Shown one piece after another: positions 5,528 to 48,241 of a stretch of DNA of 64,000 nucleotides; position 1 is the stretch's first letter, and each line of letters opens with the position of its first letter. The notes under the pieces were generated by a model. It had not been told where the DNA came from. It saw nothing but the letters and a program-made list of their open reading frames with translations, and did no database searches. Made by a program: the position numbers and the translations under genes. Source of the DNA: an uncultured Lachnospiraceae bacterium. GTDB lineage: Bacteria > Bacillota > Clostridia > Lachnospirales > Lachnospiraceae. The stretch is from assembly GCA_947086895.1 (NCBI GenBank), contig CAMUAR010000007.1, positions 1 through 64,000 of the forward strand, in the 5' to 3' direction.

Positions 5528-5552
5528 GAAATCCTCCAGCTAACCATTTCTA

Positions 5553-30015: not shown

Positions 30016-31452
30016 TTAATTACTTTTTCTTTTTATACAAAAATATTTTTTAAAAAATATCAATATAAAAAAGTACATGCCTCCGCCAAACACAATATCC
30101 AAAAAAAGAGCCAAGTAAATGTTGTGAATTTTTAAATCGATCAATTTACATATCATAAATTCAATTATACATGATATAATAACTTCAACTATATTTCTCT
30201 TGCTAATCAAAAATATTATTATTTTTTTCGAACTGATAAATGATATCAAAAAAACAATAATTTCAGCAATCAACGTAGTCGTTGCTGCTCCCTCAATCCC
30301 AAATCTTGGGATTAAAAAAATATTTAATACTACATTTAATACTGCTGCTGTTATTGTTGCATTCATAAAATATATTTCTTTTTTATTTGGCAACAAAATG
30401 GAATATGAAAAAAAACACGCAAATACAGCAAACAATATAGAAATACTTAAAATGCGAACAACATTACTTCCCTCTAAATACCCCTCACCTGCAATCACAA
30501 ATATTATTTTATCTGCTTCCATAAACATTCCGACAACAATAGGAAAAATTAAAATAACCAAAATCTCAAAAACCTTTTTTAACTCTGTTTTTAGATCCTC
30601 CATTTTTTCTTCTGCCACGTATCTTGAAAATCTTGGAACAGTTACCATAATAATCGCATTTATTAAACTTTTTACTGTTGTATAAATTCTGGAAGATATG
30701 GTATATATTCCAACTTGAATATTATCTGTTAAAATTCCAAGCATTGTAACATCTGAATTCAAATAAATAATTGAAGCAACATTATTAAAAAACAAAGTTA
30801 AAATAGGACGAAGATGTTTTCTTAAATTTACGTTTAATGTAAATTGAATTTTTATTGAATTTTTTCTTATGTATACAAAGTTAAAAATATTTCCTCCAAC
30901 ATTAGCTAATACAGAAATAAATGTATATATATACAATGAATTTTTATCCTTCACAAAAATAAAAAGGGCTATTAAAGATAACAATTGAAATATTATATAT
31001 CTTATTGTTAAATATATATAATCTTCAAATATTGAGTTAATCCAGTCTGCTCCTAAAGTAGTTAAAATAATTTGTAAACTCTGTATTATTATGATATATT
31101 TATACTTGTTTACATCTTCTATCAATACAATACAAAAAAACAAACTAATATATGCAATTATTGTTGTAATACAGTTGATTGAAAAAACTTCATTGATAAA
31201 TTTTCTTATTGCTAATAAATTATTCCGACAAGCTGCTCCTTCCCTAACAGCATAAGTTGGAATACCCAAACAAGAAATCAATAAAAAATATGATATAATA
31301 GATTGACCAAAAGAATATATCCCCAACTGGGCTGCTCCAAGAATCCTAGAACAATACATAAAAGATACTAGTGGAAACATAATAGAGCATCCTTGTTTTA
31401 TTCCATTTAAAAAAGCATTTTTCCCTAATTTATTATTTTTGCTATAAAACAT
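30016..31452 (-). CDS. Wzx-type polysaccharide flippase
   Basis: A 478-residue integral membrane protein of the MATE-like polysaccharide transporter family, with 12-14 hydrophobic segments. It begins NKLGKNAFLNGIKQGCSIMFPLVSF (read in parts) and contains SRILGAAQLGIYSFGQSI, the usual N-terminal flippase pattern, and PRFSRYVAEEKMEDLK in the central loop. It should flip undecaprenyl-linked repeat units to the outer face for polymerisation. It is the last gene of the operon, 10 bases after a glycosyltransferase. Its DNA is visibly more A/T-rich than the wbp and dlt genes. Confidence 0.9.
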   Translation of the reverse strand: MFYSKNNKLGKNAFLNGIKQGCSIMFPLVSFMYCSRILGAAQLGIYSFGQSIISYFLLISCLGIPTYAVREGAACRNNLLAIRKFINEVFSINCITTIIAYISLFFCIVLIEDVNKYKYIIIIQSLQIILTTLGADWINSIFEDYIYLTIRYIIFQLLSLIALFIFVKDKNSLYIYTFISVLANVGGNIFNFVYIRKNSIKIQFTLNVNLRKHLRPILTLFFNNVASIIYLNSDVTMLGILTDNIQVGIYTISSRIYTTVKSLINAIIMVTVPRFSRYVAEEKMEDLKTELKKVFEILVILIFPIVVGMFMEADKIIFVIAGEGYLEGSNVVRILSISILFAVFACFFSYSILLPNKKEIYFMNATITAAVLNVVLNIFLIPRFGIEGAATTTLIAEIIVFLISFISSKKIIIFLISKRNIVEVIISCIIEFMICKLIDLKIHNIYLALFLDIVFGGGMYFFILIFFKKYFCIKRKSN

Positions 31453-31462
31453 AAAATATAGA

Positions 31463-32392
31463 TTACAATAAACTCTCTTGAATTCTTGTAATAATATCTC
31501 CTATTATTATTCTCACACCAGAGTGCATTTTAAAATTTTTTATCGCCCAAATAAAATATTTTCCCAATCTCCCTTTCATTATTAATTTTCGCTGCTTATA
31601 ATAAATAATATAAATTTTTATCTGTATTCTTGACTCTTCACTTAAATAATTTGAATTATATTTTAATAAAGCTTGTAAATAGTATAACTCTTTTTCGATT
31701 TGTGTTATACGACCATTAAAATCTGATCTTAGCTTCATTGTTAAATTTAAACCTGAAGTATTATGTTCATGTATTCTATATCTTGTTAAATGTTTATTTA
31801 ACAAATAAAATCCATTATATTCACACGCCACTAATTCAATTAGTCTGTCATGTTCTTTAAATTCTTTCGTATTCCAAACAGAAAGTTTCCATTTTAATTC
31901 TTTTTTTATAGCAAGGCTCATTCCAGGTCTAAGTCCTGTTTGATGCAACAACTGTTTTGTTGTAATTTTTGTCAGTAATTGTTTTTTTCTTTTTTCTCTT
32001 TTTATTACATTTCCTGTTCCATCAACAATTATATTTAATGCAGAAATACATAATATCGATTTATACTTTCTTAAAGTTGATACCATACATAAAACTTTGT
32101 TGTTCTCCCATATATCATCTTGATCCGCAAAAAAAATAATGTTCCCTTTTGCTAATTTTAACGCTTCAAAAAAAGTTTGTGCATACCCCTTGTTTTCCTT
32201 ATGTTTTATATACTTTATATAAATTTTTGTCTTTTTAGAAAACTCCAAAATAATTTCATCACTTGGCACAGCAGAACAATCATCAATAATTATAATCTCA
32301 TCTACAGATTGTGATTGATGGTCAATACTCTCTAATTGTTCTTTTAAATATTTGTTACCATTATATACTGCTATAACAACACTGATATCCAT
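31463..32392 (-). CDS. GT2 family glycosyltransferase
   Basis: A 309-residue GT-A fold glycosyltransferase with the family-2 N-terminus DISVVIAVYNGNKYLKEQLE, the acidic stretch IIIDDCSAV, and the metal-binding DQDDIW at about residues 90-95. The C-terminal third is basic and without membrane segments, so the enzyme probably associates with the inner membrane face to add one sugar to the repeat unit; the sugar cannot be told. The ATG directly abuts the stop of the polymerase gene, showing tight operon structure. Confidence 0.9.
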   Translation of the reverse strand: MDISVVIAVYNGNKYLKEQLESIDHQSQSVDEIIIIDDCSAVPSDEIILEFSKKTKIYIKYIKHKENKGYAQTFFEALKLAKGNIIFFADQDDIWENNKVLCMVSTLRKYKSILCISALNIIVDGTGNVIKREKRKKQLLTKITTKQLLHQTGLRPGMSLAIKKELKWKLSVWNTKEFKEHDRLIELVACEYNGFYLLNKHLTRYRIHEHNTSGLNLTMKLRSDFNGRITQIEKELYYLQALLKYNSNYLSEESRIQIKIYIIYYKQRKLIMKGRLGKYFIWAIKNFKMHSGVRIIIGDIITRIQESLL

Positions 32393-33646
32393 CTACTTAT
32401 TTGTGCCTTGAAAAAGCACTCTCCTTCCAATTATATAAGTATTATCCAACAATACAACATCCATAAAATAGCAATAGACAAAACATTCTAGGTTCGGAAA
32501 TAAAGTAAAATAATTGCAAAAGAAACATACCATAAACATGCCAAGCAAATATACAGATGTGATAATTCTTTTTCCGTTATAGATCATATTAATAAAAAAA
32601 TAGTAAACAATACTCCCTATTAAAAAAACATACAAGATTGCAGGAATATACCCTATATTTAATACACTTTCAGAAAAAATCCCCCCAACATTTGCAGTTA
32701 ATCCAGATTCTTCTACCACTGGCCATAATGTAATAACAGGATCATTATAATTTCCTTGTCCAGAAAGCCACTGATATAACGTATCAAACGGGCTAAAATT
32801 ATTTCTTATTCCTGAATCAAAGCCAAGATATGCTGGATTATCAAAATATTCATTTGATGCTATAAAAGGGCAAAATAAATAATGAAAAAAATGGCGAAAT
32901 GAAAACCTGAGTCCGTCTCTCATATCTAACCACGTTGTTTCACCTGCTAAAATGTTAGGAATAACTGTATAAACAGAAACAAATAAAATTATTGCTGCTA
33001 AGAAAGTTATTGCTGCTATTTTTAATATTTTTGAAATTCTAATATTCTTCTTTGTTGTTAAAAATAGCACAACAAAGCCGGCAATTGGAATGTAAAGATG
33101 ATATTTTCCTTTAAACATTATAAGAGCTACAACATTAATTACAGCTGCTATTAAATATTTCAGTTTTTTATTTTCTATAAAATAATATAAAATAACAGGC
33201 AACAAACATCTTGATAAAAAACCAACATGAGCAAACGGACCATAAGCTTTACTTTTCGTATTATCAATACCATATCGCTGTATTACTTGAAGTAAACTAA
33301 CCACATAACAGGCAAGCGACACAATATAAGCCTGCCATATAAATTTTTCTTTATAAAATAATTTTTCCTTTATGTAATTATTAGAAATACGTCTATTACT
33401 ACAGCGTCCTAATACCACCAGCCAAAATTGACCACAAATAAGCAAAATAAGCAAAAATAATGTAAATAATATAATTGTTTTATCTTCTAATTTCAAAAAT
33501 CCTAAAAATACTCCTATTGTATTTATCATTGGTATAAATAAAAAATAAATCCCACCTAAAATAACAATTGGTGTTGCTGCCAAATGATATTGCTTATATT
33601 CATAAAATATCATAAAAATAATTAAAATTTCTGCTAAAATTATCAT
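32393..33646 (-). CDS. Wzy-like oligosaccharide repeat-unit polymerase
   Basis: A 417-residue membrane protein with about ten hydrophobic segments and a large outside loop in the second half (about 245-300: FRHFFHYLFCPFIASNEYF, then GFDSGIRNNFSPFDTL). This arrangement, between flippase and glycosyltransferase genes, fits Wzy polymerases, which are recognised by topology rather than motifs. It would join flipped repeat units. The G6 run at 32681-32686 in NVGGIF is in frame. Annotation is mainly by context. Confidence 0.72.
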   Translation of the reverse strand: MIILAEILIIFMIFYEYKQYHLAATPIVILGGIYFLFIPMINTIGVFLGFLKLEDKTIILFTLFLLILLICGQFWLVVLGRCSNRRISNNYIKEKLFYKEKFIWQAYIVSLACYVVSLLQVIQRYGIDNTKSKAYGPFAHVGFLSRCLLPVILYYFIENKKLKYLIAAVINVVALIMFKGKYHLYIPIAGFVVLFLTTKKNIRISKILKIAAITFLAAIILFVSVYTVIPNILAGETTWLDMRDGLRFSFRHFFHYLFCPFIASNEYFDNPAYLGFDSGIRNNFSPFDTLYQWLSGQGNYNDPVITLWPVVEESGLTANVGGIFSESVLNIGYIPAILYVFLIGSIVYYFFINMIYNGKRIITSVYLLGMFMVCFFCNYFTLFPNLECFVYCYFMDVVLLDNTYIIGRRVLFQGTNK

Positions 33647-33696
33647 TATATCACCATAAATATATAATATCTTTTTTAATCACAATAATTTTATAT

Positions 33697-34791
33697 CTAA
33701 ATCCAATTACCTAAACATTGTTTTATTATCTTAATTTCTTTATCCACGGTATTTTTTGCATAATACATACTATTTTTTTTGTATGGCAAATTCACCAAAA
33801 GCCTATCAACCACTTTTACTGCATTCCACTGAGAAATATTATTTGGCATCAATACTACATTATGCATTCCGCCAAAAATTTCCCTGCACACATCAATATC
33901 TGATGTAATTACTGGCATACCATAAGTTGCACATTCACATGCCATTACACCTTGAGTATCCTCCCGCGTAAAGAAAAGCGCACATTTACTTTTATCCATA
34001 TAATCCAACATTTTTTCATGTAGCAATGTTTCTTCAACCCAAATCAAGTTTTTGGGTTTGTCGTTATAATTAAAAAATTGTCCTTTCCCTATCAATAAAA
34101 ACTTCATTTTAGGATACTTTTTAGCCATAGCAACAACCAAATCTACCCCATATTTTGAATCATCCAAATTTCCTCGGATTGTTATAAAATCAAATTCTTT
34201 TTTTTGGAATACATTATAACTAACTTGTTCAAAAATACGCCCCACTGAATTATGAACTATATAAGTTTTTCCCTTAAATTTATTTAAATGAAGATTCTTT
34301 TTAAACTGTTCATAAAGCCATCTGCTTACAAAAATTAATTTTATTTTTTTAGAATTTTTTAAAAAATATTTTCTCCATACTTCGAACTTAAAACAATCAT
34401 AAAAATCTTGAAATTTATCCTTCCATAAACTTCTTCTGCAAAAATCATAAGGTTTTGGATAAGCTTCATTGATTTTTAAAATTTCATGCCCATGAAAAAT
34501 AAAAATAATCTGCTTAAAATTAATATCATATTTCCTTAAAAACTTATAATGATTCCTAAGATTTGCTGCATGACATATTAAAATTTGAAATTTCTTTAGA
34601 TTTTCTTGAAAATTCTGTAACGTAATAACAGGTATTCCATCAATCTCATAATTTATTTTGGATGAGAAATTTAAAACTTCAACATCCAATCCAGCCTCTA
34701 CATAATATCTATTTCGCACATGTACAAACGACATTGCACGTCCGCCATCAAGACGTGGATAATCTGCTACTGCTACTAATATTTTTTTCAT
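33697..34791 (-). CDS. Glycosyltransferase (GT4-like, GT-B fold)
   Basis: A 364-residue cytoplasmic GT-B enzyme. The C-terminal nucleotide-sugar-binding domain shows FDFITIRGNLDDSKYGVDLV, MKFLLIGKG and the loop FFTREDTQGVMACECATYGMPVITSD, which corresponds to the E-x7-E motif region of GT4 enzymes. The N-terminus MKKILVAVADYPRLDGGRAMS fits the acceptor domain. The donor and acceptor are unknown. The gene is very A/T-rich with long A and T runs, like the genes after it in the operon. Confidence 0.85.
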   Translation of the reverse strand: MKKILVAVADYPRLDGGRAMSFVHVRNRYYVEAGLDVEVLNFSSKINYEIDGIPVITLQNFQENLKKFQILICHAANLRNHYKFLRKYDINFKQIIFIFHGHEILKINEAYPKPYDFCRRSLWKDKFQDFYDCFKFEVWRKYFLKNSKKIKLIFVSRWLYEQFKKNLHLNKFKGKTYIVHNSVGRIFEQVSYNVFQKKEFDFITIRGNLDDSKYGVDLVVAMAKKYPKMKFLLIGKGQFFNYNDKPKNLIWVEETLLHEKMLDYMDKSKCALFFTREDTQGVMACECATYGMPVITSDIDVCREIFGGMHNVVLMPNNISQWNAVKVVDRLLVNLPYKKNSMYYAKNTVDKEIKIIKQCLGNWI

Positions 34792-34807
34792 TTTTAATAT
34801 ATTGTAC

Positions 34808-35337
34808 TTAGACGGGTTTCGCAGGTATACCCGCTAGAGTCAGCCCCTCCTCTTTATAACTTTTCACTACCACAGCATTTGCACCAATAATTGTATTATT
34901 TGGTATTGAGATTCCTCCTAAAATTTTAGCCCCTGCGCCAATCAAAACATTATCTCCTATTATTGGTACAGCTTCATCCTTACCAGAAACACCAATAACT
35001 ACTCCTTGCTGAATCGAACAATTTTTTCCGATTTTGGCATTCCCATTTACTACAATCAAACCATGATGATGAATATTTAATCCTGCTCCAAAAGTGTTGA
35101 TCGGTATATCAAATCCGAGCTTTATTCCAAGCTGATGATATCTTAATTTCCAAAACCCTCTAAAAATACACCTTTTTACCCCCCCATAATATTCTGATAA
35201 TATTCTAATTTTCTTAATGATTTCTGAAATTTTAAAATTTCTTTTCCAAATAAGGGCAAAATTTTTTTATATTTATAACCCAATTTATTAAAATCGGCAT
35301 TTAAATAATCAAATAAATCTGCTTTGCTCTGAATCAT
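34808..35337 (-). pseudogene. Serine-acetyltransferase-like hexapeptide enzyme, frame broken at a G7 tract
   Basis: Minus strand: ATG at 35337 behind GAGAGGATATATTAAAC reads MIQSKADLFDYLNADFNKLG through LRKLEYYQNIMGG and stops directly after seven G residues (35179-35185). One extra G (or two fewer) restores VKRCIFRGFWKLRYHQLGIK, then LGFDIPINTFGAGLNIHHHG and the left-handed beta-helix to IPAKPV. The restored 176-residue product resembles polysaccharide O-acetyltransferases of the CysE-like hexapeptide family. As given the gene is off. It may be a phase-variable gene rather than a dead one; a sequencing error in the tract is the other option. Confidence 0.8.
35179..35185 (-). repeat. Homopolymeric G7 tract in the acetyltransferase gene
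   Basis: Seven C on the given strand. The downstream frame is open only for tract lengths of 5 or 8. Confidence 0.85.
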
Positions 35338-35393
35338 GTTTAATATATCCTCTCAACAGTGAAATTAAATTTTTAGAATCAATATCAAATCTC

Positions 35394-36542
35394 TTAATTA
35401 TTTTTTAAATCAAACAATTCTCTTATTGATTCTACAACTTGTACTATCTCACTTTCATTTAAATATGGATGAATTGGAATACTAAGAACTTTCTTGCACA
35501 AACTCTCTGTCACTGGACAATTTGCAATTGCGCTGTCTGTTCCAACAAAAGCTTTTTGTAAATGCATCGGTTTTTTATAATACACCATTGTTGGAATTTC
35601 TTTTTCCTTTAATTTTGCTTGTACTTCTGCACGTTCAACCTCTTCTGGCAATTGTATTGTATATTGAGCCCAACTACTGGCAAAATCATTTTTTATAATT
35701 GGGAGAACCAAATCAGGAATATCACTTAATCTTTCTGTATACATATTTGCAATTTGATTAATATTATTTAATTCATAATTTTTAAATGCTTCTATCTTTA
35801 CCAACAACACTGCAGCTTGAATTGTATCAAGTCTACTATTAATTCCTATACGAACATTATTGTATTTGTCTTTTTTATTCTGTCCATGTATTCGGTAACT
35901 TTTTATTAAATCTGCCCATTCGTCATTATTTGTAAAAACTGCACCTCCGTCACCATAACATCCTAATGGCTTTGCTGGAAAAAAACTTGTTGTTGAAATG
36001 TCTCCAAAACTACAAGCTTTTTTTTCTCCTATCATTCCGCCAAATCCCTGCGCCCCATCTTCCAACAACAGCAAATGATATTTTTCACAAATAATCTTAA
36101 TTTTCTGATAATCTGCCGGTAAACCAAATAAATCAACTGCTATAACAACTTTTGGATTATATTTTCCTTCCTTTTTTACCTGAATAATTGATTCTTCCAA
36201 TTTCTCTGGGCTAATATTGTATGTATATCTATCAACATCAACAAAAATAGGTGTTGCACCTTGATAAGCCGGGCATTCTCCACTAGCAAAAAAAGTAAAA
36301 TTCGGTACAAATACTGCATCTTTCTTTTTTATATTCCATGCCATTAATGCTAATGTAATTGCATCTGTCCCATTTGCACATGTAATACAATACTTAACTC
36401 CAACATAAGCAGCTAATTTTTGTTCTAGTTCTTCTACTTCGAATCCAGAAATAAAATTTGCAGAATTTATTACAGTAGCTATTCTGGCATCCATTTCTGA
36501 TTTTAACGCTTTATACTGTTTCTTTAAATCTCTAAATTCCAT
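35394..36542 (-). CDS. wbpE: UDP-3-keto-GlcNAcA aminotransferase (WbpE/WlbC-like)
   Basis: A 382-residue PLP-dependent sugar aminotransferase of the DegT/DnrJ/EryC1/StrS family. MEFRDLKKQYKAL at the N-terminus, the PLP-phosphate stretch ANGTDAITLAL, LLEDGAQGFG (Asp for the PLP ring nitrogen) and SFFPAKPLGCYGDGGA with the Schiff-base Lys are present. With WbpB and WbpD homologues immediately upstream it should install the 3-amino group of UDP-2-acetamido-3-amino-glucuronate. It overlaps wbpD by 11 bases. Confidence 0.88.
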   Translation of the reverse strand: MEFRDLKKQYKALKSEMDARIATVINSANFISGFEVEELEQKLAAYVGVKYCITCANGTDAITLALMAWNIKKKDAVFVPNFTFFASGECPAYQGATPIFVDVDRYTYNISPEKLEESIIQVKKEGKYNPKVVIAVDLFGLPADYQKIKIICEKYHLLLLEDGAQGFGGMIGEKKACSFGDISTTSFFPAKPLGCYGDGGAVFTNNDEWADLIKSYRIHGQNKKDKYNNVRIGINSRLDTIQAAVLLVKIEAFKNYELNNINQIANMYTERLSDIPDLVLPIIKNDFASSWAQYTIQLPEEVERAEVQAKLKEKEIPTMVYYKKPMHLQKAFVGTDSAIANCPVTESLCKKVLSIPIHPYLNESEIVQVVESIRELFDLKNN

Positions 36543-37140
36543 TCTGCTCCTCCTTTTCTTTCTGAATTGTATTATTTATTTCAAAATATTTGCGATAACA
36601 ATCACTGCAATATAAATTGTGATCTAATATTTGACCACATTCACAAACAACCCCAACCTGCTTTCCTGGCACTCCCGCAACCAACGCATAATCTGGTACA
36701 TCCTTTGTCACAACCGCTCCAGCTGCAACCATTGCATACTTTCCAATTACATGCCCGCATAGGATTGTTGCATTCGCACCAATGCTTGCCCCTTCCCGTA
36801 CAATAGTTTTTATATAGTTCTCTCTTCCTTTCGGAAATCTTGCCCTCGGCGTAAGATCATTGGTAAACACACAGGATGGACCACAAAAAACACCATCCTC
36901 CAACTCGACCCCTTCATATACGGATACATTGTTTTGAATTTTTACTTTATCACCGATCACTACATGATTTGCAATATTTACATTTTGCCCAATGGAACAA
37001 TGTTTTCCAATTCTAGCGCCGGATTGTATATGACAAAAATGCCAAATCTTTGTTCCATCTCCGATTTCCACATTCTCATCAATATAACTGCTCTCATGCG
37101 CAAAATATCCTGTTTTTTCCTTCTTAATTTTTCTTCTCAT
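36532..37140 (-). CDS. wbpD: UDP-3-amino-GlcNAcA N-acetyltransferase (WbpD/WlbB-like) with zinc-ribbon tail
   Basis: A 202-residue left-handed beta-helix acetyltransferase. Hexapeptide repeats run from about residue 17 to 165, with IWHFCHIQSGARIG, NVNIANHVVIGDKVKIQNN and GVFCGPSCVFTNDLTPRA, all typical of WbpD/WlbB, which acetylates the 3-amino group. The last 40 residues add two cysteine pairs (CECGQILDHNLYCSDC), a likely zinc-binding tail. It lies between the WbpB and WbpE homologues, completing the pathway to UDP-2,3-diacetamido-glucuronate. Confidence 0.88.
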   Translation of the reverse strand: MRRKIKKEKTGYFAHESSYIDENVEIGDGTKIWHFCHIQSGARIGKHCSIGQNVNIANHVVIGDKVKIQNNVSVYEGVELEDGVFCGPSCVFTNDLTPRARFPKGRENYIKTIVREGASIGANATILCGHVIGKYAMVAAGAVVTKDVPDYALVAGVPGKQVGVVCECGQILDHNLYCSDCYRKYFEINNTIQKEKEEQNGI

Positions 37141-37274
37141 CTTCCTTACTTCTCTTTTCTGTCACCCTGTCTTTTGAAATTCCTATTGTCCATCATTTTG
37201 ACAGTTCCTAAAATTTTCTATATTTCTTTGGCTTTTATATGTAATTCCCTATTCAAAGTCATTTTCATAAATTC

Positions 37275-38372
37275 TTAAAATTCTTTTATCTTCTCTTCTC
37301 CAAACTCTCCTTTCATATCTGCGCTTCCAAATTCTTTTAATGGAAATTCCACCACTTCCCCAGTTTTCTGGCTTTTATAAACTGCCAATACCAATTCCAA
37401 CGCTCTTCTTCCCGCATGGGCATCCACATATGGTTCTCTGTCTTCCCGGATGGCACAAACCACATCTGCAAAAAGGCTGGTATGACCATTCCCGTAAACA
37501 TTGCTGGTTGCTTCCTTTAGACTTTTGTTTTTATAATCCTCCTCTGTTTCACCCGCAAAATTCCAAACTTCAATATTGTTTGTCGATTTTCCGCCCAGTT
37601 TTACGGTTCCGTTCTCTCCAAACAGATATAAAGTTTCTTCCAGATTCTGAGGATACACATTCGTTGTCCCTTCAATGGTTGCAATCACGCCATTTTTAAA
37701 CTTTACCACTGCCATCCCCACATCTTCCGCTTCCAGATAAGAATGGAATTGCTGCCTTGTTGCGCCGTAGACACTTTCGATCTCATCCCCCAGCATCCAG
37801 CGCAGCAGGTCGATCCCATGGATGCACTGGTTCATCAACGCACCGCCGTCCTGTTCCCAAGTGCCGCGCCAAGGTGCCTGTGTGTAATAATCTCTGTTGC
37901 GGTTCCAGCGGACATGGATGGAACCGTGGGAAATCCTGCCAAAACGCCCTGTTTCCAATGCTTTTCTCATCTCCTGTACCGCGATGTTAAATCGGTTTTG
38001 GTGACAGGCAGATACTTTCACATGATATTCTTCTGACAATTGGATAATCCTGTCAGCTTCTGCAAGTGACATTGCCATCGGCTTTTCAATAATGACATGG
38101 ATTCCATGCTGAATACAGTCAAGGGCAATCTGCCCGTGCAGACCACTTTCAGTTGCGATGCTGACCAACTCTGGTTTTATTTCTGCAATCATTTTCCGAT
38201 AATCTGTATAACGCGCTATTGTTCGATCTTCTTTTTTCTCATGTTTTTCCAAAACTGCTTCCATATGTTCCGGGATAATATCGCATACTGCCACAAGCTC
38301 CAACTGGTTGGCAATCGCCGCTTTTATATGGTTTGTGGAAATCCGACCACAGCCGATCAGTGCATATCTCAT
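37275..38372 (-). CDS. wbpB: UDP-GlcNAcA 3-dehydrogenase (WbpB/WlbA-like)
   Basis: A 365-residue Gfo/Idh/MocA oxidoreductase with the Rossmann start RYALIGCGRISTNHIKAA, the conserved EKPMAM (about residues 96-101), CHQNRFNIAVQEMRKAL and GALMNQCIHGIDLLRWMLG with the catalytic His region. The family member WbpB/WlbA oxidises the 3-hydroxyl of UDP-GlcNAcA. The match to WlbA-type features and the adjacent aminotransferase and acetyltransferase genes make this the specific call. AGGAG precedes the start. The dlt set lies immediately upstream. Confidence 0.87.
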   Translation of the reverse strand: MRYALIGCGRISTNHIKAAIANQLELVAVCDIIPEHMEAVLEKHEKKEDRTIARYTDYRKMIAEIKPELVSIATESGLHGQIALDCIQHGIHVIIEKPMAMSLAEADRIIQLSEEYHVKVSACHQNRFNIAVQEMRKALETGRFGRISHGSIHVRWNRNRDYYTQAPWRGTWEQDGGALMNQCIHGIDLLRWMLGDEIESVYGATRQQFHSYLEAEDVGMAVVKFKNGVIATIEGTTNVYPQNLEETLYLFGENGTVKLGGKSTNNIEVWNFAGETEEDYKNKSLKEATSNVYGNGHTSLFADVVCAIREDREPYVDAHAGRRALELVLAVYKSQKTGEVVEFPLKEFGSADMKGEFGEEKIKEF

Positions 38373-38409: not shown

Positions 38410-38562
38410 CTAAAACTGATTATAAATAAATTCTGGAACTGTGGTCATCTCTGTGTTAATCAGATGGAAAAAAATACAGATCAGCATGATTCCCATGGCA
38501 ATCCCATGAACGACCAGCACTATATTTTCATTTTTTTTTATTCTGCTTATCAGCTTATTCAC
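38410..38562 (-). CDS. dltX: DltX-like small membrane protein
   Basis: A 50-residue protein with a GTG start at 38562 behind GAGGTGG. A basic N-terminus (NKLISRIKKNEN) is followed by one membrane segment (IVLVVHGIAMGIMLICIFFH, about residues 14-33) and the C-terminus TVPEFIYNQF. DltX proteins are about 50 residues with one membrane helix and end in FIYNxF; the Tyr is the proposed carrier of D-alanine between DltB and DltD. It lies 42 bases after dltD, completing a dltABCDX set. DltX is usually encoded before dltA, so the position at the end is unusual. Confidence 0.85.
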   Translation of the reverse strand: MNKLISRIKKNENIVLVVHGIAMGIMLICIFFHLINTEMTTVPEFIYNQF

Positions 38563-38604
38563 TTTACGATCCACCTCATTTTCGAATCTTTTTATAAAAG
38601 GTTT

Positions 38605-40434
38605 TCACTCACTTTGCATTACATGAAATATGTCAATTCCTCTGATCTCGATTCTTTCAGAAAGAAAAGTACTCACATCAAACTGATATTTCACCACATC
38701 ACCATGCTTTAATGCGACTTGACTCGCTATCGTCTGATCCGCCTTGTTACTATTTCCTTTAACCACAAATGTATAGATACCATCATCAAGTTGATTGACA
38801 TAAGTACCGCTCAAATATCCGGTTTCTGACAGGCTATCTATATTTGCAATATGGCTGCCCTCCGAGTCATACACCTGTAAGACAACAGCATTAAATTGAT
38901 TATCCTCTGTCTCTGTTGTCATAATAAATTTCCCGGGTTCTGACTCCACGCACCCTGCTGAGAGCTGTCTGTTCAAAAACATCCTCTCTGCCTGCAGTAT
39001 TGTTACATCCGCCCTTATCCCTGCCCCGTGGTCCGCAACCCCTTCAAGATTTACTGTTTTTTGTTTTGTTATTTCCTCTGCTGCATCGGTCACACCTCTA
39101 AGATACCCATCTGCACTTATGGTAAGCTTTATGGGAGAATCAAAATTTATCTGTGCTTCCGAAACATCAGATATATAATTTAACAAACGGATTTCAGCAC
39201 TTTTGCTCTCCGTATCCTCCTTTATCACATACGCGGATACCTCAAATGGATAATTCCTTACTTTGTCATGATCAAGGTAATAGCGGTAAACTCCCTCATT
39301 AAGGTATGCCCATCCTTTCCAGCCAAGGTGCATAATATCCTTGAGGAAATAAGGTTCATACTCCTTATCAGAAAAATCCAGCACTGACACGCCATGCGCC
39401 ATACAAATATCCCTTATCTTTTGATAATAGGCTTTCCTGCTTGCCTGCGGAAAACCAGTCCAGTCATACCAGATTCCGTTCACTGGAATATTTACAATCA
39501 ACGGGGTAATTCCCGTATCCTCACAGACTTTGAAAAACAACTCTAAATCGTCATATTCCGGGGATTCCAGATAACTCGCTCCTGTATTTACACCCTTGTT
39601 GCTAAAGTATCCGCTTTCAATATATGTAGTGTAATAATAGTCATATATATATAAATTGTTGTTTGTACACGCCTTTACACCAGCCTGCTCCGCTTTTTTC
39701 AACAACTCCTGATAATCGATATTCTCTGCCACGACCTGCTCTTCTGACGGACTTACTGTGATTTTCTCCAGTTCCATCAACAGATCCCTTGTCTGCTTAT
39801 TCTCCATAACAATATCCCAAGCCGCAACTTGTAATCTCTCCGCCAAACTGGCATTTTTTTCTATATACACCTTGTCATAAAGCAGCACCCTCCGATATTC
39901 TTCTGGGTTTCCTGTTTCCAGCAAACTTTCTGCCCGGTCAGCCAGTTTCCTTTTTGTCTCATAGGAGAGATTTTTATTTTTTACCATATGCGAAAATAAT
40001 CTCTCGGAAAACCTGCTCGCATAAGCTTCGCCGCTTAAGTGACTTGCAGTAAACCACTGCGGCGACAAAATCAATACAACTTTTTTGTTTTCGATATCAT
40101 CCGCAACTGCTCCTAAAGTAATCGCGTGGTGAAGGGATTGCATAGTCCCCCTTCCTACCATAATTATATTATAATCAGAATTTCCTCCATTAAATAACGC
40201 GGGCGGGTACGCAACATTGTCCGATGCTGACAGCTCAGATGATCCAAATAACAAAATCGAGCTGTTATCTGCCAAATCTCCCAAAACCGCCGCGCAGAAA
40301 TTCCTTGTGTCAGTATTATAATAGATAATTTTGCTCCTGTCTGACAGGACTGCCTTTTGATTGAATACAGAATATCCCACAACAAAGACAGTTAAGATTA
40401 CACAGGCAGCCACCAGCGGCAAAATTCTTTTCAT
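38605..40434 (-). CDS. dltD: DltD-like D-alanyl transfer protein with C-terminal extension
   Basis: A 609-residue exported, membrane-anchored protein: N-terminal membrane segment (about 4-22), then an SGNH-like hydrolase domain. The catalytic Ser is in LLFGSSELSAS (about residue 65) and the Asp/His pair in LKDIMHLGWKGWAYLN (about 363-378); WNGxGM-like text typical of the fold is absent. DltD moves D-alanine to its final acceptor outside the membrane. Usual length is about 390-430; here some 200 extra C-terminal residues follow, probably beta-rich with Ig-like character, and may hold the polymer. GGAGGCGCAGGA precedes the start. Confidence 0.88.
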   Translation of the reverse strand: MKRILPLVAACVILTVFVVGYSVFNQKAVLSDRSKIIYYNTDTRNFCAAVLGDLADNSSILLFGSSELSASDNVAYPPALFNGGNSDYNIIMVGRGTMQSLHHAITLGAVADDIENKKVVLILSPQWFTASHLSGEAYASRFSERLFSHMVKNKNLSYETKRKLADRAESLLETGNPEEYRRVLLYDKVYIEKNASLAERLQVAAWDIVMENKQTRDLLMELEKITVSPSEEQVVAENIDYQELLKKAEQAGVKACTNNNLYIYDYYYTTYIESGYFSNKGVNTGASYLESPEYDDLELFFKVCEDTGITPLIVNIPVNGIWYDWTGFPQASRKAYYQKIRDICMAHGVSVLDFSDKEYEPYFLKDIMHLGWKGWAYLNEGVYRYYLDHDKVRNYPFEVSAYVIKEDTESKSAEIRLLNYISDVSEAQINFDSPIKLTISADGYLRGVTDAAEEITKQKTVNLEGVADHGAGIRADVTILQAERMFLNRQLSAGCVESEPGKFIMTTETEDNQFNAVVLQVYDSEGSHIANIDSLSETGYLSGTYVNQLDDGIYTFVVKGNSNKADQTIASQVALKHGDVVKYQFDVSTFLSERIEIRGIDIFHVMQSE

Positions 40435-40445
40435 TCCTGCGCCTC

Positions 40446-40685
40446 CTATATCCTCCCTGTTCTCTGAAGCACCAAATCTATAACTTTTTGAGGCGTATTG
40501 ATCTGCGCTCTGTCAAGTTCTGATGGCGCCACTGTAATCCCGAATGTTTCCTCAAGCTGTATTACCATCTCGATAAATCCAAGGGAATCCAGCAAATCCG
40601 TTTCGAAAAGTTCTATGTTAAGATCCTCTTTTACGACATCATCCTCACATGCCTTTGATAATATATCTAAAATCTTCTCTTCCAT
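40446..40685 (-). CDS. dltC: D-alanyl carrier protein DltC
   Basis: A 79-residue acyl-carrier protein. The phosphopantetheine-bearing Ser is in DLLDSLGFIEM (Ser34), matching the DSLG variant used by DltC. It receives D-alanine from DltA and delivers it to DltB at the membrane. Length and acidity are typical. GGGGGATTAAA precedes the start. It is separated from dltB by 122 bases that contain a palindromic element, and from dltD by 11 bases. Confidence 0.93.
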   Translation of the reverse strand: MEEKILDILSKACEDDVVKEDLNIELFETDLLDSLGFIEMVIQLEETFGITVAPSELDRAQINTPQKVIDLVLQRTGRI

Positions 40686-40807: not shown

Positions 40808-41998
40808 TTATACTCCTATAATCACTGCCCCTTTTATAAAATCCTGCACCATTGTGTTTATATACCCCGAAAAAACCAAAAAGCCAAACATCACAATATT
40901 TAATGTGATAAACCATGATGCCATTTTATACCAAAGTTTCCCTTTTGATTTTTTGTAAAACTTTGATTTTTTCTGATAAATTTCTGTTATAGCTAAAATC
41001 ACACCATGATACAGACCATATTGTATATAATGCGTCTCAAGTCCATGCCACAGACCCATAATAAACATGTTCACGATATATCCTGCCGATGCTGCATAAA
41101 TACGGTCAGAAAACCATTTGCTTTTTAAGGCTCCCATCATAAAACGATTAAAAATAAAATCTCGGAACCATGTTGACAGCGAAATATGCCACCGATTCCA
41201 GAAATCTTTCATATCAAGACTGATAAATGGCAGCCGAAAATTATCTGGCAGCTGTATACCCAAAACATACGCTGTACCCACAGCCATTGCCGAGTACCCG
41301 GCAAAATCAAAGAACAGATATAATCCGTAGGTATAGGCACTTCCCAGTACTGTCAGTGTACTGTATGGTTTTGCAAAAAAATCCTGCATCCAGCCATAAC
41401 ATATCTCTGAGCATACAATTTTGTAAAATGCCCCAAGGACAAGTTTGAATGTACCAGCTTCAAACAGCTTGCTGTATTCCTCCCTTGTATACTCTCTTGC
41501 ATCATCCTGGCAAAACCTTCTGCTTCGGTCGATCGGTCCAGAACTTAAGCTTGGGAAAAACAAGAGGAAACCCAAATACGAAAAGGCTTGGATATCCGCA
41601 ATTACACCATCGTGGATTTCTATGATTACCTGCACGGATCGGAAACAGATATATGAAATTCCAAGGAATCCCCCCACACCTTCTTCGAACGCGGATATTT
41701 TGTAAAACACCAGCAGCATTAACGCTAAACCTACTACAGTATGGAATACGAAATCGCTATCATTCCCCCTGCTCTTTAAGTAAATATATATTTTAGTCAA
41801 AAACAACGCAAATATTGCATAACCTAACAACAGCCACAATTGATTTGGAGTTGTGTGATATATCAGATAGATCAAGAGTCCCGATGCAAATGCTCTGTAA
41901 AATTTTAGGTACTTACTTTTCCAAAATCCTATCACAGCCGCTGCGATCAACACCACAGCCAGCCACGAGAAAAAATCAAATCCTGAATAGAAACTCAT
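40808..41998 (-). CDS. dltB: MBOAT acyltransferase DltB
   Basis: A 396-residue membrane protein of the MBOAT family with about eleven hydrophobic segments. DltB features are clear: LLFFPSLSSGPIDRSRRF, the DLDMKDFWNRWHISLSTWF-like text (LDMKDFWNRWHISLS) and the catalytic His in MGLWHGLETHY (about residue 317). It accepts D-alanine from DltC inside and passes it across the membrane. It overlaps dltA by 4 bases (ATGA). A G6 run (41670-41675, VGGF) is in frame. Confidence 0.94.
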   Translation of the reverse strand: MSFYSGFDFFSWLAVVLIAAAVIGFWKSKYLKFYRAFASGLLIYLIYHTTPNQLWLLLGYAIFALFLTKIYIYLKSRGNDSDFVFHTVVGLALMLLVFYKISAFEEGVGGFLGISYICFRSVQVIIEIHDGVIADIQAFSYLGFLLFFPSLSSGPIDRSRRFCQDDAREYTREEYSKLFEAGTFKLVLGAFYKIVCSEICYGWMQDFFAKPYSTLTVLGSAYTYGLYLFFDFAGYSAMAVGTAYVLGIQLPDNFRLPFISLDMKDFWNRWHISLSTWFRDFIFNRFMMGALKSKWFSDRIYAASAGYIVNMFIMGLWHGLETHYIQYGLYHGVILAITEIYQKKSKFYKKSKGKLWYKMASWFITLNIVMFGFLVFSGYINTMVQDFIKGAVIIGV

Positions 41999-43581
41999 CT
42001 TTGGCTGTCCTCCAATGCTTTTCTGTCCACTTTTCCATTCATTGTCATAGGAATAAAATCAACGAACTTGATTTTTTTTGGAACCATATACTCTGGCAAA
42101 AGCTGTTTTAATTCCCTTTTTATTTTCTGTGATAACTGAAAATCAAACGTTGCAATTTTTGTACTGTTTTCTCTATACACAAGATAGGCTGTAAGGCTTT
42201 TCACTCGGTGGCTGTCATCAAAATTTGGCAGCACAACTGCCTTCTCTACATAAGGTATCTTAATCAAATTGTTTTCTATATCCTCAATTTCTATTCTGTA
42301 GCCGTGGAGCTTGATTTGAAAATCCATGCGCCCGCAGTAAAACAATTGACCGTTTTTTTTATATCCTTTATCACCTGTGCGGTACAGACGATATTCTGTG
42401 CCATTAATCGTATAAATTGAAAATGATTTTTTTGTCTGCTCCTCATTTCTATAATATCCTGTGCTTACTGTGTCGCCTACAATAATGATTTCGCCCTCTT
42501 CCCCATCTGGCATATTATTACCATTTTCATCCACGATAAAAATCCATGTGCCGGGTTTTGCCGCGCCAACCGGCAGTGGATTGTAATCATTCAATGTTTC
42601 TTCGTCAATCACAGCCTGTGTTACACAAACCGTCGATTCTGTAGGTCCGTAAGTATTTACAATTACGGATTCTGGGAAATTTTCACGCAATCTTTCTACC
42701 GTTCTGTTTGTCAATACCTCTCCACAGAACAGAAAGTATTTCATATTCTTTAACAGCTTATCATTAAAGCAATGGTCTGACAGACATACATCAGCAAACG
42801 AGGGAGTGAATACCCAGATATTTACATCTGCTACAGATAATACCTTATACAGCAGCTTTAAATTCTTCTGTATTTCTTTCGTGACTGCACATATCGTCCC
42901 ACCAGTGCAGAGAGAAAGATATATATCCATCACTGACAGGTCGAAGGAAAATGGAGCCTGATTCAGAAAGCGGTACGTATGTTGTGAAATACCCCCCCCC
43001 GCTAAATTTTGAGCCCACTTTACATAATTTGTGAGACACTCCGTGCTGATCTTCACGCCCTTGGGATTTCCTGTTGAGCCAGATGTGAAAATGATATAGA
43101 AGGTGTCTTCTGGTTTTGTACAGAGATCTTGTGCTATTTCATACTGTCCATCATAACTTATATTCCTTATGGACATTAGGTCAAGATATTCACAGCCTAT
43201 TGGCAACAAAAAGTCTTTATCTTCTGTTGCCAATATTATTTCAGGTTCCACGCTGCCAATAATATCTTCCACCCTTGATGTTGGAACGGATACATCTATG
43301 GGAATATAGGCATGTCCTGATTTTGCACAAGCTATAAAACAACTAAGCATATATTTATTTTTATGCCCGTACACAATAATTGGGTTTCTCCCCTTTGTAT
43401 GGGTGCTGATATAGCCAGCCAATCGATCCGAATATTGATTTAACTCCTTCCATGTTAAAGAATCTACTGTATAATGGGACTTTTGCAACATATCTGTTTC
43501 CGCTGCATCATATACAATATATGCTATGCTATCAGGGTTCTTCTTGGCATATTCTTTTATCTGATGGATCATTTCATTCAT
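41995..43581 (-). CDS. dltA: D-alanine--carrier protein ligase DltA, with internal G9 tract
   Basis: A 528-residue adenylating enzyme. The ATP loop IIFTSGSTGNPKG (about 165-177), LNQAPFSFDLSVMD, the D-alanine-selective Cys in LFCGEVL (about 290), NTYGPTES, YRTGD and the C-terminal catalytic Lys in NGKVDRKAL are all conserved, closely following DltA proteins. It activates D-alanine and loads DltC. AGGAGG lies ten bases before the start. Codons around residue 195 contain nine consecutive G (42992-43000) encoding AGGG in a non-conserved loop; a change of one would truncate the enzyme at about 200 residues. Confidence 0.95.
   Translation of the reverse strand: MNEMIHQIKEYAKKNPDSIAYIVYDAAETDMLQKSHYTVDSLTWKELNQYSDRLAGYISTHTKGRNPIIVYGHKNKYMLSCFIACAKSGHAYIPIDVSVPTSRVEDIIGSVEPEIILATEDKDFLLPIGCEYLDLMSIRNISYDGQYEIAQDLCTKPEDTFYIIFTSGSTGNPKGVKISTECLTNYVKWAQNLAGGGISQHTYRFLNQAPFSFDLSVMDIYLSLCTGGTICAVTKEIQKNLKLLYKVLSVADVNIWVFTPSFADVCLSDHCFNDKLLKNMKYFLFCGEVLTNRTVERLRENFPESVIVNTYGPTESTVCVTQAVIDEETLNDYNPLPVGAAKPGTWIFIVDENGNNMPDGEEGEIIIVGDTVSTGYYRNEEQTKKSFSIYTINGTEYRLYRTGDKGYKKNGQLFYCGRMDFQIKLHGYRIEIEDIENNLIKIPYVEKAVVLPNFDDSHRVKSLTAYLVYRENSTKIATFDFQLSQKIKRELKQLLPEYMVPKKIKFVDFIPMTMNGKVDRKALEDSQR
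42992..43000 (-). repeat. Homopolymeric G9 tract in dltA
   Basis: Nine C on the given strand. The frame is open at this length; adding or losing one or two bases would shift it. Confidence 0.9.
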
Positions 43582-43675: not shown

Positions 43676-44775
43676 TTATAAAAAACTACCTCTTTCCATC
43701 TTATCTTCAAGAAGTTGTACAATTTTTTCAGCAGAATGACCATCTCCAAAAGGGTTGTAATCTTCTTTAATCAACTGCTTGGTATTTAATTTATCAATAA
43801 TCTCATCTGCAATTGGTTTTGACAATTCGTTTCTGCCATCTACCATAATTTCCGGCCAACATACAAAATCAAGAATTGTGATACATTTCTTTTTTGCAAA
43901 AAATGCTTCACGCTGCAAACCTCCTGAGTCTGTAACTACTTTTTTTGCATTATCAACAAGATAAATACTTTCCAGATAACCGACTGGTTCACATAATATT
44001 ATCTTTTGGAATTTATATTTTCGCTGTAACTTTTCTGCATATTGCCTACTTCTTGGATGTACAGGATAAATCGTGGGAGCATCTAACTGTTCCATCGCTC
44101 TAAATATTTCTAAAAGTGTATGGCTATCACTTGTATTTTCTTCTCTATGACAAGTCAAATAATAAAATTCTTTAGGTATGGAAATCAAACCTTCAAAAAA
44201 TGAATTTAGTTTAAAATCTTTACAATACTTTTTTATTCTATATTTTAAAAAAGCATCGTACATAGGATCTCCAACCATATATCCCCGCTCAGATAATCCT
44301 TCTGAATTTATATTTCTTATACCACTTTGTGTACTTGCCAACAATAAAGATGAAAGATGATCTGTTAAAATTCTATTGACTTCTTCTGGATTCTTTTTAT
44401 TATAAGTACGTACTCCTGCCTCCACATGGCAAATTGGAATATGTAACTTCGCCGCTGACAATGCCGCTGCTAATGTGGAATTTGTATCTCCATAAACAAG
44501 TAACAGATCTACCCCCCCCCAATATATTTTTGCAATATTTCTTCTATTGCAATCATCATTCTACCTGTCATTTGCGCATGAGTACCTCCAGAAATACCAA
44601 GATTATAATCTGGATCTGGAATATCCAATTCTTTAAAAAATTGCGCAGACATATTATAATCATAATGCTGACCTGTATGGATTAATACTTCTGTATGTTT
44701 TTTTCTTAGTATTTCTGACACAACTGCTGCCTTAATAAACTGGGGACGCGCCCCAACAACAGTAACTATTTTCAT
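43676..44775 (-). pseudogene. wbpI: UDP-GlcNAc3NAcA 2-epimerase (WbpI-like), frame broken at a G9 tract
   Basis: Reads MKIVTVVGARPQFIKAAVVS, IHTGQHYDYNMS and GGTHAQMTGRM to EEILQKYIGGG, then stops at 44509 directly after nine G. With 7 or 10 G the frame continues VDLLLVYGDTNSTLAAAL, HVEAGVRTYNKKNPEEVNRI, TCHREENTSDSH and TDSGGLQREAFF to the end. The text fits WbpI (GISGGTH...MTGRM) better than housekeeping WecB. The restored enzyme (about 365 residues) would convert UDP-GlcNAc3NAcA to UDP-ManNAc3NAcA. As given it is off; no other damage is seen, so it may be switchable. It ends one base before wbpA's stop region and precedes dltA by 94 bases. Confidence 0.85.
44512..44520 (-). repeat. Homopolymeric G9 tract in wbpI
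   Basis: Nine C on the given strand. The downstream frame is open only for tract lengths of 7, 10 and so on. Confidence 0.9.
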
Positions 44776-46092
44776 TTACAATACCTCAACATTTTCTTTG
44801 TTTTTCACATTACTCATTACATTTTTAGTGTCAAAGACCACTTTTGCATTTTTTTGAACCATATCATAGTCAATATTGTGGTGCGCTGCGGTTACTATCA
44901 CCAGATCAAATTCTGCGATAACCTGAAAAGTAAGTTCAGGAATACTTTTGCCATTTTCTCCATACATATTTCTAAATTCTGGTATCCATGGATCATAATA
45001 CTCCACAATTGCACCAACTTTTTTTAATTCTTTTAAAACTCTGATTGCTGGACTTTCTCGATAATCATCAATATCATTTTTATAAGAGACACCAAGAAGG
45101 AGAATTTTTGCCCCATTGATCGCTTTTTTCTGTCGATTTAAAATATGCATTACTCTTTCAACACAATATTCAGGCTGACCATCATTAATTATCATGCTAT
45201 TTTCAATTAACGTAGTATGAAATCCATATTCACGCGCTTTCCATGTAAGATAATATGGATCTAATGGAATGCAGTGACCCCCAAGCCCTGGTCCTGGATA
45301 AAATGCTTGAAATCCATAAGGTTTTGTTTTTGCTGCATCAATTACCTCCCAGATAGAAATCCCCATCTTATGACATAACCTTCCAAGTTCATTGATCAAA
45401 CCTATGTTTATATTGCGGTAAGTATTTTCTAAAATTTTTTCCATTTCTGCTACTGCTGGACTGGATACAGTATGTACTTCTCCATCAAGTACAGCCCTGT
45501 ACATTGCCGAAATTACTTCGGCTGCATCTTTCCCAATTCCTCCAACCACTTTCGGAGTATTTTTTGTTTTATAAATCAAATTTCCTGGATCAACTCTTTC
45601 TGGGCTAAACCCAAGATAAAAATCTTTTTCACATTTTAAGCCGCTTCCTTTTTCCAGAATTGGTTTTATCAATTCTTCTGTTGTTCCAGGATATGTTGTA
45701 GATTCAAGTACTACAATAGAGCCTTTTTTTAAATACTTTGAAATAGAAACAGCACAATTCTTTACATAGCTGATGTCTGGCTCCTGATGTTTATCCAATG
45801 GTGTAGGGACGCAGATTGCGATAAAATCTACATCTTTAATAAAAGAAAAATCTGTTGTAGCACGGAACCTCTTATTTTTAACCAAACTGGCAATATCAGA
45901 ATCAACTACATCGCCAATATAATTCTGCCCTGCATTAACCAAATCAACTTTATTTGACTGAACATCAAAACCTATTGTTTGAAAACCTGCTTTTGCTTTT
46001 TCTACAGCAAGAGGCAGTCCTACATATCCTAACCCAACAACTCCAGCAACAATAGTACGATTTTCAATTTTGCTCAATAATTCTTTTTTCAT
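44776..46092 (-). CDS. wbpA: UDP-N-acetylglucosamine 6-dehydrogenase (WbpA-like)
   Basis: A 438-residue UDP-sugar dehydrogenase with VGLGYVGLPLAVEKA at the NAD site, CVPTPLD, ESTTYPGTTEEL, the substrate region NTYRNINIGLINELGRL and the catalytic Cys in GLGGHCIPLDPYYL (about residue 260). WbpA oxidises UDP-GlcNAc to UDP-GlcNAcA, the first step toward the diacetamido-uronic acid made by WbpB, WbpE and WbpD encoded downstream. WecC-type UDP-ManNAc dehydrogenase is the close alternative; the presence of the other wbp genes favours WbpA. It overlaps the upstream glycosyltransferase by 4 bases. Confidence 0.88.
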   Translation of the reverse strand: MKKELLSKIENRTIVAGVVGLGYVGLPLAVEKAKAGFQTIGFDVQSNKVDLVNAGQNYIGDVVDSDIASLVKNKRFRATTDFSFIKDVDFIAICVPTPLDKHQEPDISYVKNCAVSISKYLKKGSIVVLESTTYPGTTEELIKPILEKGSGLKCEKDFYLGFSPERVDPGNLIYKTKNTPKVVGGIGKDAAEVISAMYRAVLDGEVHTVSSPAVAEMEKILENTYRNINIGLINELGRLCHKMGISIWEVIDAAKTKPYGFQAFYPGPGLGGHCIPLDPYYLTWKAREYGFHTTLIENSMIINDGQPEYCVERVMHILNRQKKAINGAKILLLGVSYKNDIDDYRESPAIRVLKELKKVGAIVEYYDPWIPEFRNMYGENGKSIPELTFQVIAEFDLVIVTAAHHNIDYDMVQKNAKVVFDTKNVMSNVKNKENVEVL

Positions 46093-47336
46093 TTTTTTTT
46101 AAATGCCCTTTCAAACTTTTCTGATAATACAGGAATTGTAAAGTTCTGCATTACTGCATCCTTTCCGTTTTTTCCCATAGATTCTAATTTTTCTTTTGGC
46201 ATACCGATTAATTTTTGAATTCCTTCAACAAGAGCTTCTGTACTTTCTGGAGTCACGCTGATTCCACAATGATAATCTTTAATATAATTGTTTGGTGCAT
46301 GAACTGCATATAAAATTGGTTTACCAGACATCATAGAATCAAACAATTTATTCATACATATTCCAAAACGGAACATTCTGCTATTAATGGCACCGATATA
46401 TATAATATCCACCTGACTCAGCAAAACTGGAACACTTTTTTTTGAAATACTTTCAAAAAAATATATATTATTCATACCTGCAGCTCGCTCAACCAATTTG
46501 TTTTTGTAATTTCCATTTCCAACTATCAGAAGTCCTACTTCCGTATTATTAAACTGTTTCATCGCATCAATCAGATAATCCAAAGCATAAGAAATTGTTA
46601 TACTTCCAAAAAAACAAATCAGAAATTTATGGTTTTTCTTAATTCCTGTAAGTTCTTGTTGCATCTTCTCTGGCAAAGGTGTAATATTTAACCATTCTTC
46701 CTCAAGAATACCATTCGGTACATGAACAAATTTTCCTTGACGCAATCCACGTTTTATCAAATATTTTTCTGCACATGGCAACAATGAAACTACAGCGTCC
46801 GAATTGCAGCAAAAAGATTTTTCTGCTTTTTGCATTATCTTGATAAATGGATGTTTTGGGGACATTCCTCCAATTTCAACAGGAACAATTGGCCACATAT
46901 CATGAATTTCATGAATTAACTTTCCTTTTCCTCTAGTATACTTCTTAATACGCTGCCCTACATAGGTATCAAGTGGATAAGTAGAAGATGTGATTATAAC
47001 ATCTGGTTGAAACTTTTGTGCAATGTTCTTTGCATTAAACCATAACTTTCCTACAAATTGAAACATTGTTAAAGCTCTTTTCCCACCATTTCCTTCGTAA
47101 CTTATTGTATGAATCCAATGATAATGAATACCGTCTATTATTTGTTCCTCAAAATCTTTGTTTATTTTAGGATTGCTGATCCGTAAATGCGAATAGCTTG
47201 CTGCTATCACATCGACTCGATATCCTTTTTTGACCCATTCCCTCGCAAAATAATATGGTCTGAATTCCATTCCCATATCAGGAGAACCTGCATAATGGTT
47301 GATTAATAATATATTTTTTATAGCCCTATTTTTCAT
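46089..47336 (-). CDS. GT4-family glycosyltransferase (WbuB-like)
   Basis: A 415-residue GT-B glycosyltransferase. The N-terminus ILLINHYAGSPDMGMEFRPY and YYFAREWVKKGYRVDVIAAS are typical of the WbuB-like group that adds amino-sugars early in repeat-unit assembly. HEIHDMWPIVPVEIGG, VVSLLPCAEKYL and FFGSITISYALDYLIDAM continue the match; the C-terminal motif region reads FGICMNKLFDSMMSGKPILYAV. It follows the initiating transferase, so it may add the second sugar (inference). Confidence 0.88.
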   Translation of the reverse strand: MKNRAIKNILLINHYAGSPDMGMEFRPYYFAREWVKKGYRVDVIAASYSHLRISNPKINKDFEEQIIDGIHYHWIHTISYEGNGGKRALTMFQFVGKLWFNAKNIAQKFQPDVIITSSTYPLDTYVGQRIKKYTRGKGKLIHEIHDMWPIVPVEIGGMSPKHPFIKIMQKAEKSFCCNSDAVVSLLPCAEKYLIKRGLRQGKFVHVPNGILEEEWLNITPLPEKMQQELTGIKKNHKFLICFFGSITISYALDYLIDAMKQFNNTEVGLLIVGNGNYKNKLVERAAGMNNIYFFESISKKSVPVLLSQVDIIYIGAINSRMFRFGICMNKLFDSMMSGKPILYAVHAPNNYIKDYHCGISVTPESTEALVEGIQKLIGMPKEKLESMGKNGKDAVMQNFTIPVLSEKFERAFKKK

Positions 47337-47447
47337 AAGACTTTTTTACCTCCAATAACACTTTCAATATTATGTAATTCTATTTTCTTAATAATATTGA
47401 TTATAGTAATGTTATGTTTTCTTTATTATTTGATTATTTTTAAAAAT

Positions 47448-48137: not shown

Positions 48138-48241
48138 TTTTTTATTTCCTTTTCTATATTTCAGTGACGGTAAAACTCTAAACTTTTGATGTATTCAGCG
48201 AACTGCCTTATAAAAGCTTTTAAAGATAAAATAAAAATCAC

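Follow-up and report, generated by a model that had tools for sequence, protein, structure and literature searches.

We asked whether the dlt operon in the 64,000-nucleotide stretch of Lachnospiraceae DNA analysed here (the window) includes a gene for the microprotein DltX, and which polymer the encoded system would modify. The question turns on a gene that is easily overlooked: dltX frequently goes unnoticed owing to its small size, and DltX of B. thuringiensis was concluded to be essential for D-alanylation (PMC5541007). In PMC12148441, the C-terminal FXYXXF of DltX is described as an "acyl shuttle" motif, in which a tyrosine ester passes D-alanine from DltB to DltD.

A 50-codon frame downstream of dltD

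Four canonical dlt genes lie on the minus strand of the window, each over an NCBIfam cut-off. They are dltA, the D-alanine–carrier protein ligase (41995–43581; TIGR01734 567.6 bits, cut-off 559.85; NF003417 593.4 bits, cut-off 476), dltB, an MBOAT acyltransferase (40808–41998; TIGR04091 443.7 bits, cut-off 375), the carrier protein gene dltC (40446–40685; NF003464 76.8 bits, cut-off 68; TIGR01688 71.7 bits, cut-off 52.35), and dltD (38605–40434; 609 residues; TIGR04092 330 bits, PF04914, and DltD matches by structure model and PDB). A sequence-only reading of this DNA had proposed a 50-codon, GTG-initiated gene at 38410–38562. These coordinates are right, and the strand, which that reading left unstated, is minus. 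Window:38410-38562:- translates as VNKLISRIKKNENIVLVVHGIAMGIMLICIFFHLINTEMTTVPEFIYNQF, 50 codons followed by a stop, and the plus strand encodes nothing comparable there. With this frame the dltA-B-C-D-X set is complete.

The frame has a GTG start with an imperfect Shine-Dalgarno. An in-frame GTG at 38574, twelve bases upstream, would extend the protein to 54 residues; the GTG at 38562 is favored because a Shine-Dalgarno-like AGGTGG, read from the sequence (38571–38576, minus strand), lies 8 nt upstream of it and because relatives such as L092 start at the matching position. A gap of 42 nt separates the last base of dltD (38605) from dltX, and 37 nt separate dltX from a Gfo/Idh-type gene (37275–38372), all on the same strand. 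Neither the dltD–dltX gap nor the stretch just past dltX showed a terminator-like site on the minus strand.

The protein is laid out as a small membrane protein. Its best 19-residue hydropathy window, IVLVVHGIAMGIMLICIFF (mean 2.76), is preceded by K, R, K, K and E and followed by E and E, leaving the N-side positive. The structure model predicts helices at residues 2–8 and 12–37 and a C-terminal tail without secondary structure. This tail spans 13 residues and places Tyr fourth from the end (Tyr47 in the 50-residue numbering), and its terminal F-I-Y-N-Q-F fits the DltX motif FXYXXF. The earlier description of a single-helix protein ending in EFIYNQF thus agrees with both the translation and the predicted helix.

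Bacillus and Staphylococcus DltX (dltXABCD; PF12459, formerly DUF3687), as described in PMC5541007 and PMC12148441, share with the window protein a length of about 50 residues, one helix, linkage to dltABCD, a positive N-terminus inside the cell and a short outside tail ending in FXYXXF. The layout is the same as that given for B. thuringiensis DltX in PMC5541007. Unlike the gene of these dltXABCD operons, window dltX follows dltD and falls below Pfam detection. The frame shows the operon with dltA, B, C and D, the size of about 50 residues, the single predicted helix, the C-terminal FXYXXF with its Tyr, and profile homology; the trait it does not share is the Bacillus-type position before dltA.

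How unusual is the motif? The window has 1185 stop-to-stop frames with at least 30 codons, and of these dltX alone ends in FxYxxF; 40 first-order random 64-kb sequences yielded a mean of 0.15 such frames (maximum 2). By itself, the C-terminal motif is mildly unusual; the combination of motif, helix and post-dltD position is far beyond chance. Given the random-sequence counts, the motif alone is not decisive, and position and conservation decide.

Curated profiles do not detect the protein. Pfam PF12459 gave no match at E≤10 and its 25-bit gathering cut-off was not reached; NCBIfam gave no meaningful match to window DltX and no DltX-type match for any of 20 DltX-like proteins; and a PDB sequence search returned 0 matches with the single protein and only unrelated weak ones with a profile. 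The PF12459 gathering cut-off is a detection threshold and not a biological trait. At E≤1, PF12459 matches 15 of 33 collected DltX-like proteins (best 9.3e-16), nearly end to end, and it matches 6 of the 14 in the family set described below. In a set of ten proteins it matches six over nearly the whole profile at 12.8–22.5 bits, all below the 25-bit cut-off (L046, one of the ten, is a member of the family set as well).

We then scored the window with a profile built from 97 DltX-like sequences, the window protein excluded. This held-out profile ranks dltX first of 1873 window frames (E=6.5e-10; runner-up 0.078), a score that is partly motif-driven since the sequences were mostly gathered by their terminal motif pattern, which also makes Tyr present in 97/97 by construction. 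The profile search that the sequence-only reading proposed was silent with PF12459 and positive with the held-out profile. At the free position −2, the 97 sequences have Gln (48), Glu (32), Asn (6), Gly (4), Ala (3), Asp (2), Met (1) and Ser (1). The Gln that had been singled out as an oddity is indeed there, but it is the commonest residue, ahead of Glu and Asp.

DltX-like frames in dlt loci of relatives

Within the family, 13 of 299 genomes encode DltD, in 14 operons. Every one of these operons (14/14) carries a DltX-like frame, directly after dltD in 13. Twelve frames, the window included, have a strict FXYXXF after dltD; G262 has YIYSQF after dltD, and G287 has FIYNEF before dltA. Tyr and the last Phe are invariant in the family alignment and the first Phe is near-invariant, which partly reflects selection, as 13 of the 14 were picked with the motif pattern. 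In a similarity search free of the motif, small frames reaching the same C-terminus were found in G262 (E=2.1e-5), G032, G082, G148, G141, G090 and G133. These seven matches range from E=2.1e-5 to 0.012 and all adjoin dltD; the same search gave some match at E≤1 in 156 of 299 genomes, mostly by chance, with many weaker ones unrelated to dlt.

Across the class, a search of 391 genomes gave 19 DltB places over the cut-off, the window among them, spread over 18 genomes. All 18 loci outside the window have a DltX-like frame, 16 of them right after dltD, in the gene orders D-X-A-B-C (11), A-B-C-D-X (5) and, in L063 and L068, with X before dltD (2). The survey gave 23 DltB matches outside the window, of which 20 were read (18 strong and 2 weak), and the weak matches G657, G322 and G673 were left out. 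The two weak loci that were read are of a different kind. L076 has a dlt-like set that is divergent (A, C, X, B), with no dltD detected; its X, a frame ending in GFQYVGF (5434–5598, minus strand), is flanked by the DltC-like gene and the DltB-like gene. In L077 the tail, ending in EFIYFQF, is fused to an MBOAT.

A third survey covered named contigs and took the best 80 of 573 DltB relatives, ranked by similarity to a clostridial DltB alignment. Because of this query, the set leans to Clostridia and under-samples Bacilli, where dltX lies before dltA; nor is it independent of the unnamed sets, as contigs overlap (L142 and L063, for example). Six of the 80 loci, truncated or with dltD incomplete or missing, were excluded; L106, one of these six, still shows the ORF. 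Of the 74 kept from these best 80 of 573, 67 have a DltX-like frame directly after dltD; counting the Coriobacteria variants, the frame lies after dltD in 68/74 and before it in 6/74, and 0 are without one. In L142 and L146 the ORF precedes dltD. A scan of named genomes with window DltD found no relatives.

Five Coriobacteria loci (L097, L104, L108, L115 and L147) were considered as loci without DltX, and this was rejected. Each has a membrane-helix ORF with a variant ending, namely PVYAEF (L097), PVYAGF (L104), PAYAAY (L108 and L115) or PVYENF (L147). In L147 the ORF follows dltD; in the remaining four loci it precedes a dltD. These ORFs are the top match of the 97-sequence profile in each locus (E=4.3e-7 to 1.3e-3), and their Tyr is there by selection because the search required a Tyr near the end. 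In dlt loci of Collinsella, Olsenella and Adlercreutzia, the DltX-like motif starts with Pro in place of Phe, as P-x-Y-x-x-[FY], or is of the A-x-Y type.

Rotating a single circular gene order yields all three arrangements, X-A-B-C-D (L045 and one copy in L124), D-X-A-B-C and A-B-C-D-X. In the D-X-A-B-C loci L058, L144 and L151, the dltX-like frame sits between dltD and dltA. In PMC10642750, the C. difficile operon is named dltDABC, with four genes, and the word dltX was counted 0 times. Oral streptococci have a dltB-dltD-X set (L124, 5722–7502; also L114, L123 and L140), which in L124 stands beside the canonical X-A-B-C-D operon and may be a second acyl transfer unit.

Placement after dltD had been read as an exception. 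The placement itself is as described, but it is the usual one in the relatives examined (67/74 named loci), so a position before dltA does not define DltX. In Lachnospiraceae and other Clostridia, the post-dltD ORFs (L078, L079, L082, L086, L090, L094 and L109) share the place, topology and ending of window DltX, down to a final PEFIYNQF in L078 and L079, yet over the aligned set of DltX-like proteins identity to the window protein is only 14–36%. Window dltX is ordinary for its relatives in its place and in its Gln at −2; it is missed by length and by profile. A literature search covering titles, abstract openings and passages found no account of dltX after dltD or of Dlt acting on capsule.

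Operon context, motif, topology, the match to the held-out profile and the frame's conservation in relatives together identify the ORF, as the sequence-only reading had it, as DltX, and we consider it very probable that it is the dltX of a complete dltABCDX operon. That reading had named the joint absence of a profile match and of conservation as what would count against it; PF12459 is silent, but the frame is conserved. A chance, untranslated open frame downstream of dltD, as the short length, GTG start, lack of a DltX match in Pfam or NCBIfam and the motif-ending frames of some random 64-kb sequences (mean 0.15) might suggest, is extremely improbable against the AGGTGG, the held-out E=6.5e-10 and the conservation of frame, helix, terminal motif and place in family operons (14/14, 13 after dltD) despite 14–36% identity. 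It is also very unlikely that the gene is a relic, or that another DltX encoded elsewhere in the genome makes it redundant. The protein has diverged from its relatives, and the TAP of the DltX-like consensus is TVP in it, but its motif is intact, as are dltA–D. A PF12459 search of the window's own genome gave 0 matches, which speaks weakly against a second copy, as this search misses the window-type clade.

A predicted route for D-alanine

By transfer from studied Dlt systems, DltA would activate D-alanine and load it onto DltC, and DltB would hand it through the membrane to Tyr47 of the microprotein, whose tail is predicted to lie outside the cell. The DltX tail would then swing to DltD, where the active-site serine would place D-alanine onto a surface polymer. 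His318 of window DltB is invariant in an alignment of 14 DltBs, and the GSSE block (64–67), Asp366 and His369 of DltD are invariant in an alignment of 16 DltDs, so the pathway positions of both proteins are present in the window. We take the DltD residues to be the pattern expected of an SGNH-type active site. We take window DltX to be this same kind of shuttle. The analysis establishes its sequence, motif, operon, predicted topology and conservation across relatives; that it is expressed, forms D-alanyl-tyrosine and binds DltB and DltD is inferred, as is the acceptor. Its Tyr is a putative D-alanine carrier, and its requirement for D-alanylation is likewise putative.

Window DltB (40808–41998) ends without a fused tail; the tail is a separate frame. 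PatA-type MBOAT acyltransferases have a C-terminal FXYXXF, an acyl-tyrosine shuttle motif, according to PMC12148441. This motif is of the same form as that of window DltX, but in PatA-type enzymes it is fused to the MBOAT and acetyl-CoA is used in place of a carrier protein.

DltX provides the shuttle step of D-alanylation; to a gene finder or a Pfam-based survey, the window system would look incomplete. Our surveys suggest that a search beside dltD would turn up a DltX in nearly all dlt operons of these groups and that the curated PF12459 profile is too narrow. The completeness claimed earlier holds for the genes, dltA-B-C-D-X all being present, but a gene set does not show teichoic acid to be the acceptor.

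The polysaccharide block and the acceptor

The operon is enclosed by a same-strand Wzx/Wzy-type polysaccharide block that runs from 49459 to 30016 on the minus strand. On one side (30016–38372) lie genes for a Gfo/Idh oxidoreductase, a hexapeptide acyltransferase, a DegT aminotransferase, glycosyltransferases, a DUF6337 protein with a probable Wzy-like role, and a Wzx-type flippase. The other side (43676–49459) encodes a split wecB-like epimerase, a nucleotide-sugar dehydrogenase, a glycosyltransferase, an initiating sugar transferase and the second of the two DegT aminotransferases in the block.

DltD also has a C-terminal extension. In the structure model, the SGNH part covers residues ~1–386, a linker (389–484) is poorly modelled (pLDDT under 50), and a beta-rich C-terminal domain (~488–605) is moderately confident. 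The extension (38605–39275) amounts to about 220 extra residues, beta-rich in the model; part of it is also present, at 26% identity, in DltD of L078, the locus listed first in the DltB search. The glycan-block context and this domain are new relative to the sequence-only reading, and the glycan-island context is worth following.

These features raise the possibility that the protein is a true DltX and the Dlt machine D-alanylates the surrounding Wzx/Wzy-type polysaccharide, either instead of or in addition to lipoteichoic or wall teichoic acid. Consistent with this are the position of dltABCDX between same-strand glycan genes, the extra DltD domain, and the sparse distribution in the genus, where DltD occurs in 1/6 genomes and DltB likewise. 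The block flanks have close genus matches (24473–29506 in L160, L162 and L163; 50153–60421 in L164), and the glycan and dlt block was not beside the matching flanks in the stretches read (five regions in four genomes, with several short contigs). However, in the relative G173 the two flanks are on different contigs and no clean empty site was seen.

Other dlt loci bear on the acceptor in both directions. With 13 window queries, 16 of 111 other loci showed window-like glycan genes close to dlt, but 95 of 111 have no such neighbor at E≤1e-6 in short flanks, and a common location does not equal a common substrate. Two sulfatase-fold proteins elsewhere in the genome, judged by eye, may be lipoteichoic acid synthases, which keeps teichoic acid possible. 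On balance, we regard a glycan acceptor as possible but doubtful: the D-alanine acceptor may be the glycan of the block rather than teichoic acid. The fuller scenario, in which a Dlt system with a divergent DltX and a beta-domain DltD joined a polysaccharide island and D-alanylates its glycan instead of teichoic acid, yielding a zwitterionic glycan, is speculative and rather unlikely. If the glycan were the acceptor, Dlt would be a more general editor of surface-polymer charge than the teichoic acid name implies.

The glycan neighbors of dlt recur in part. A sugar dehydrogenase and hexapeptide transferase pair, mostly with DegT, is present in six loci (five distinct, as L063 and L142 are one contig), and this set recurs near dlt in Clostridium-type loci. 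DegT lies beside dltA in L081 and L082, and L152 has a sugar transferase and DegT. In the window, the wecB-like UDP-GlcNAc 2-epimerase gene (43676–44775) is split into 44509–44775 and 43676–44461 by a frameshift or an assembly error.
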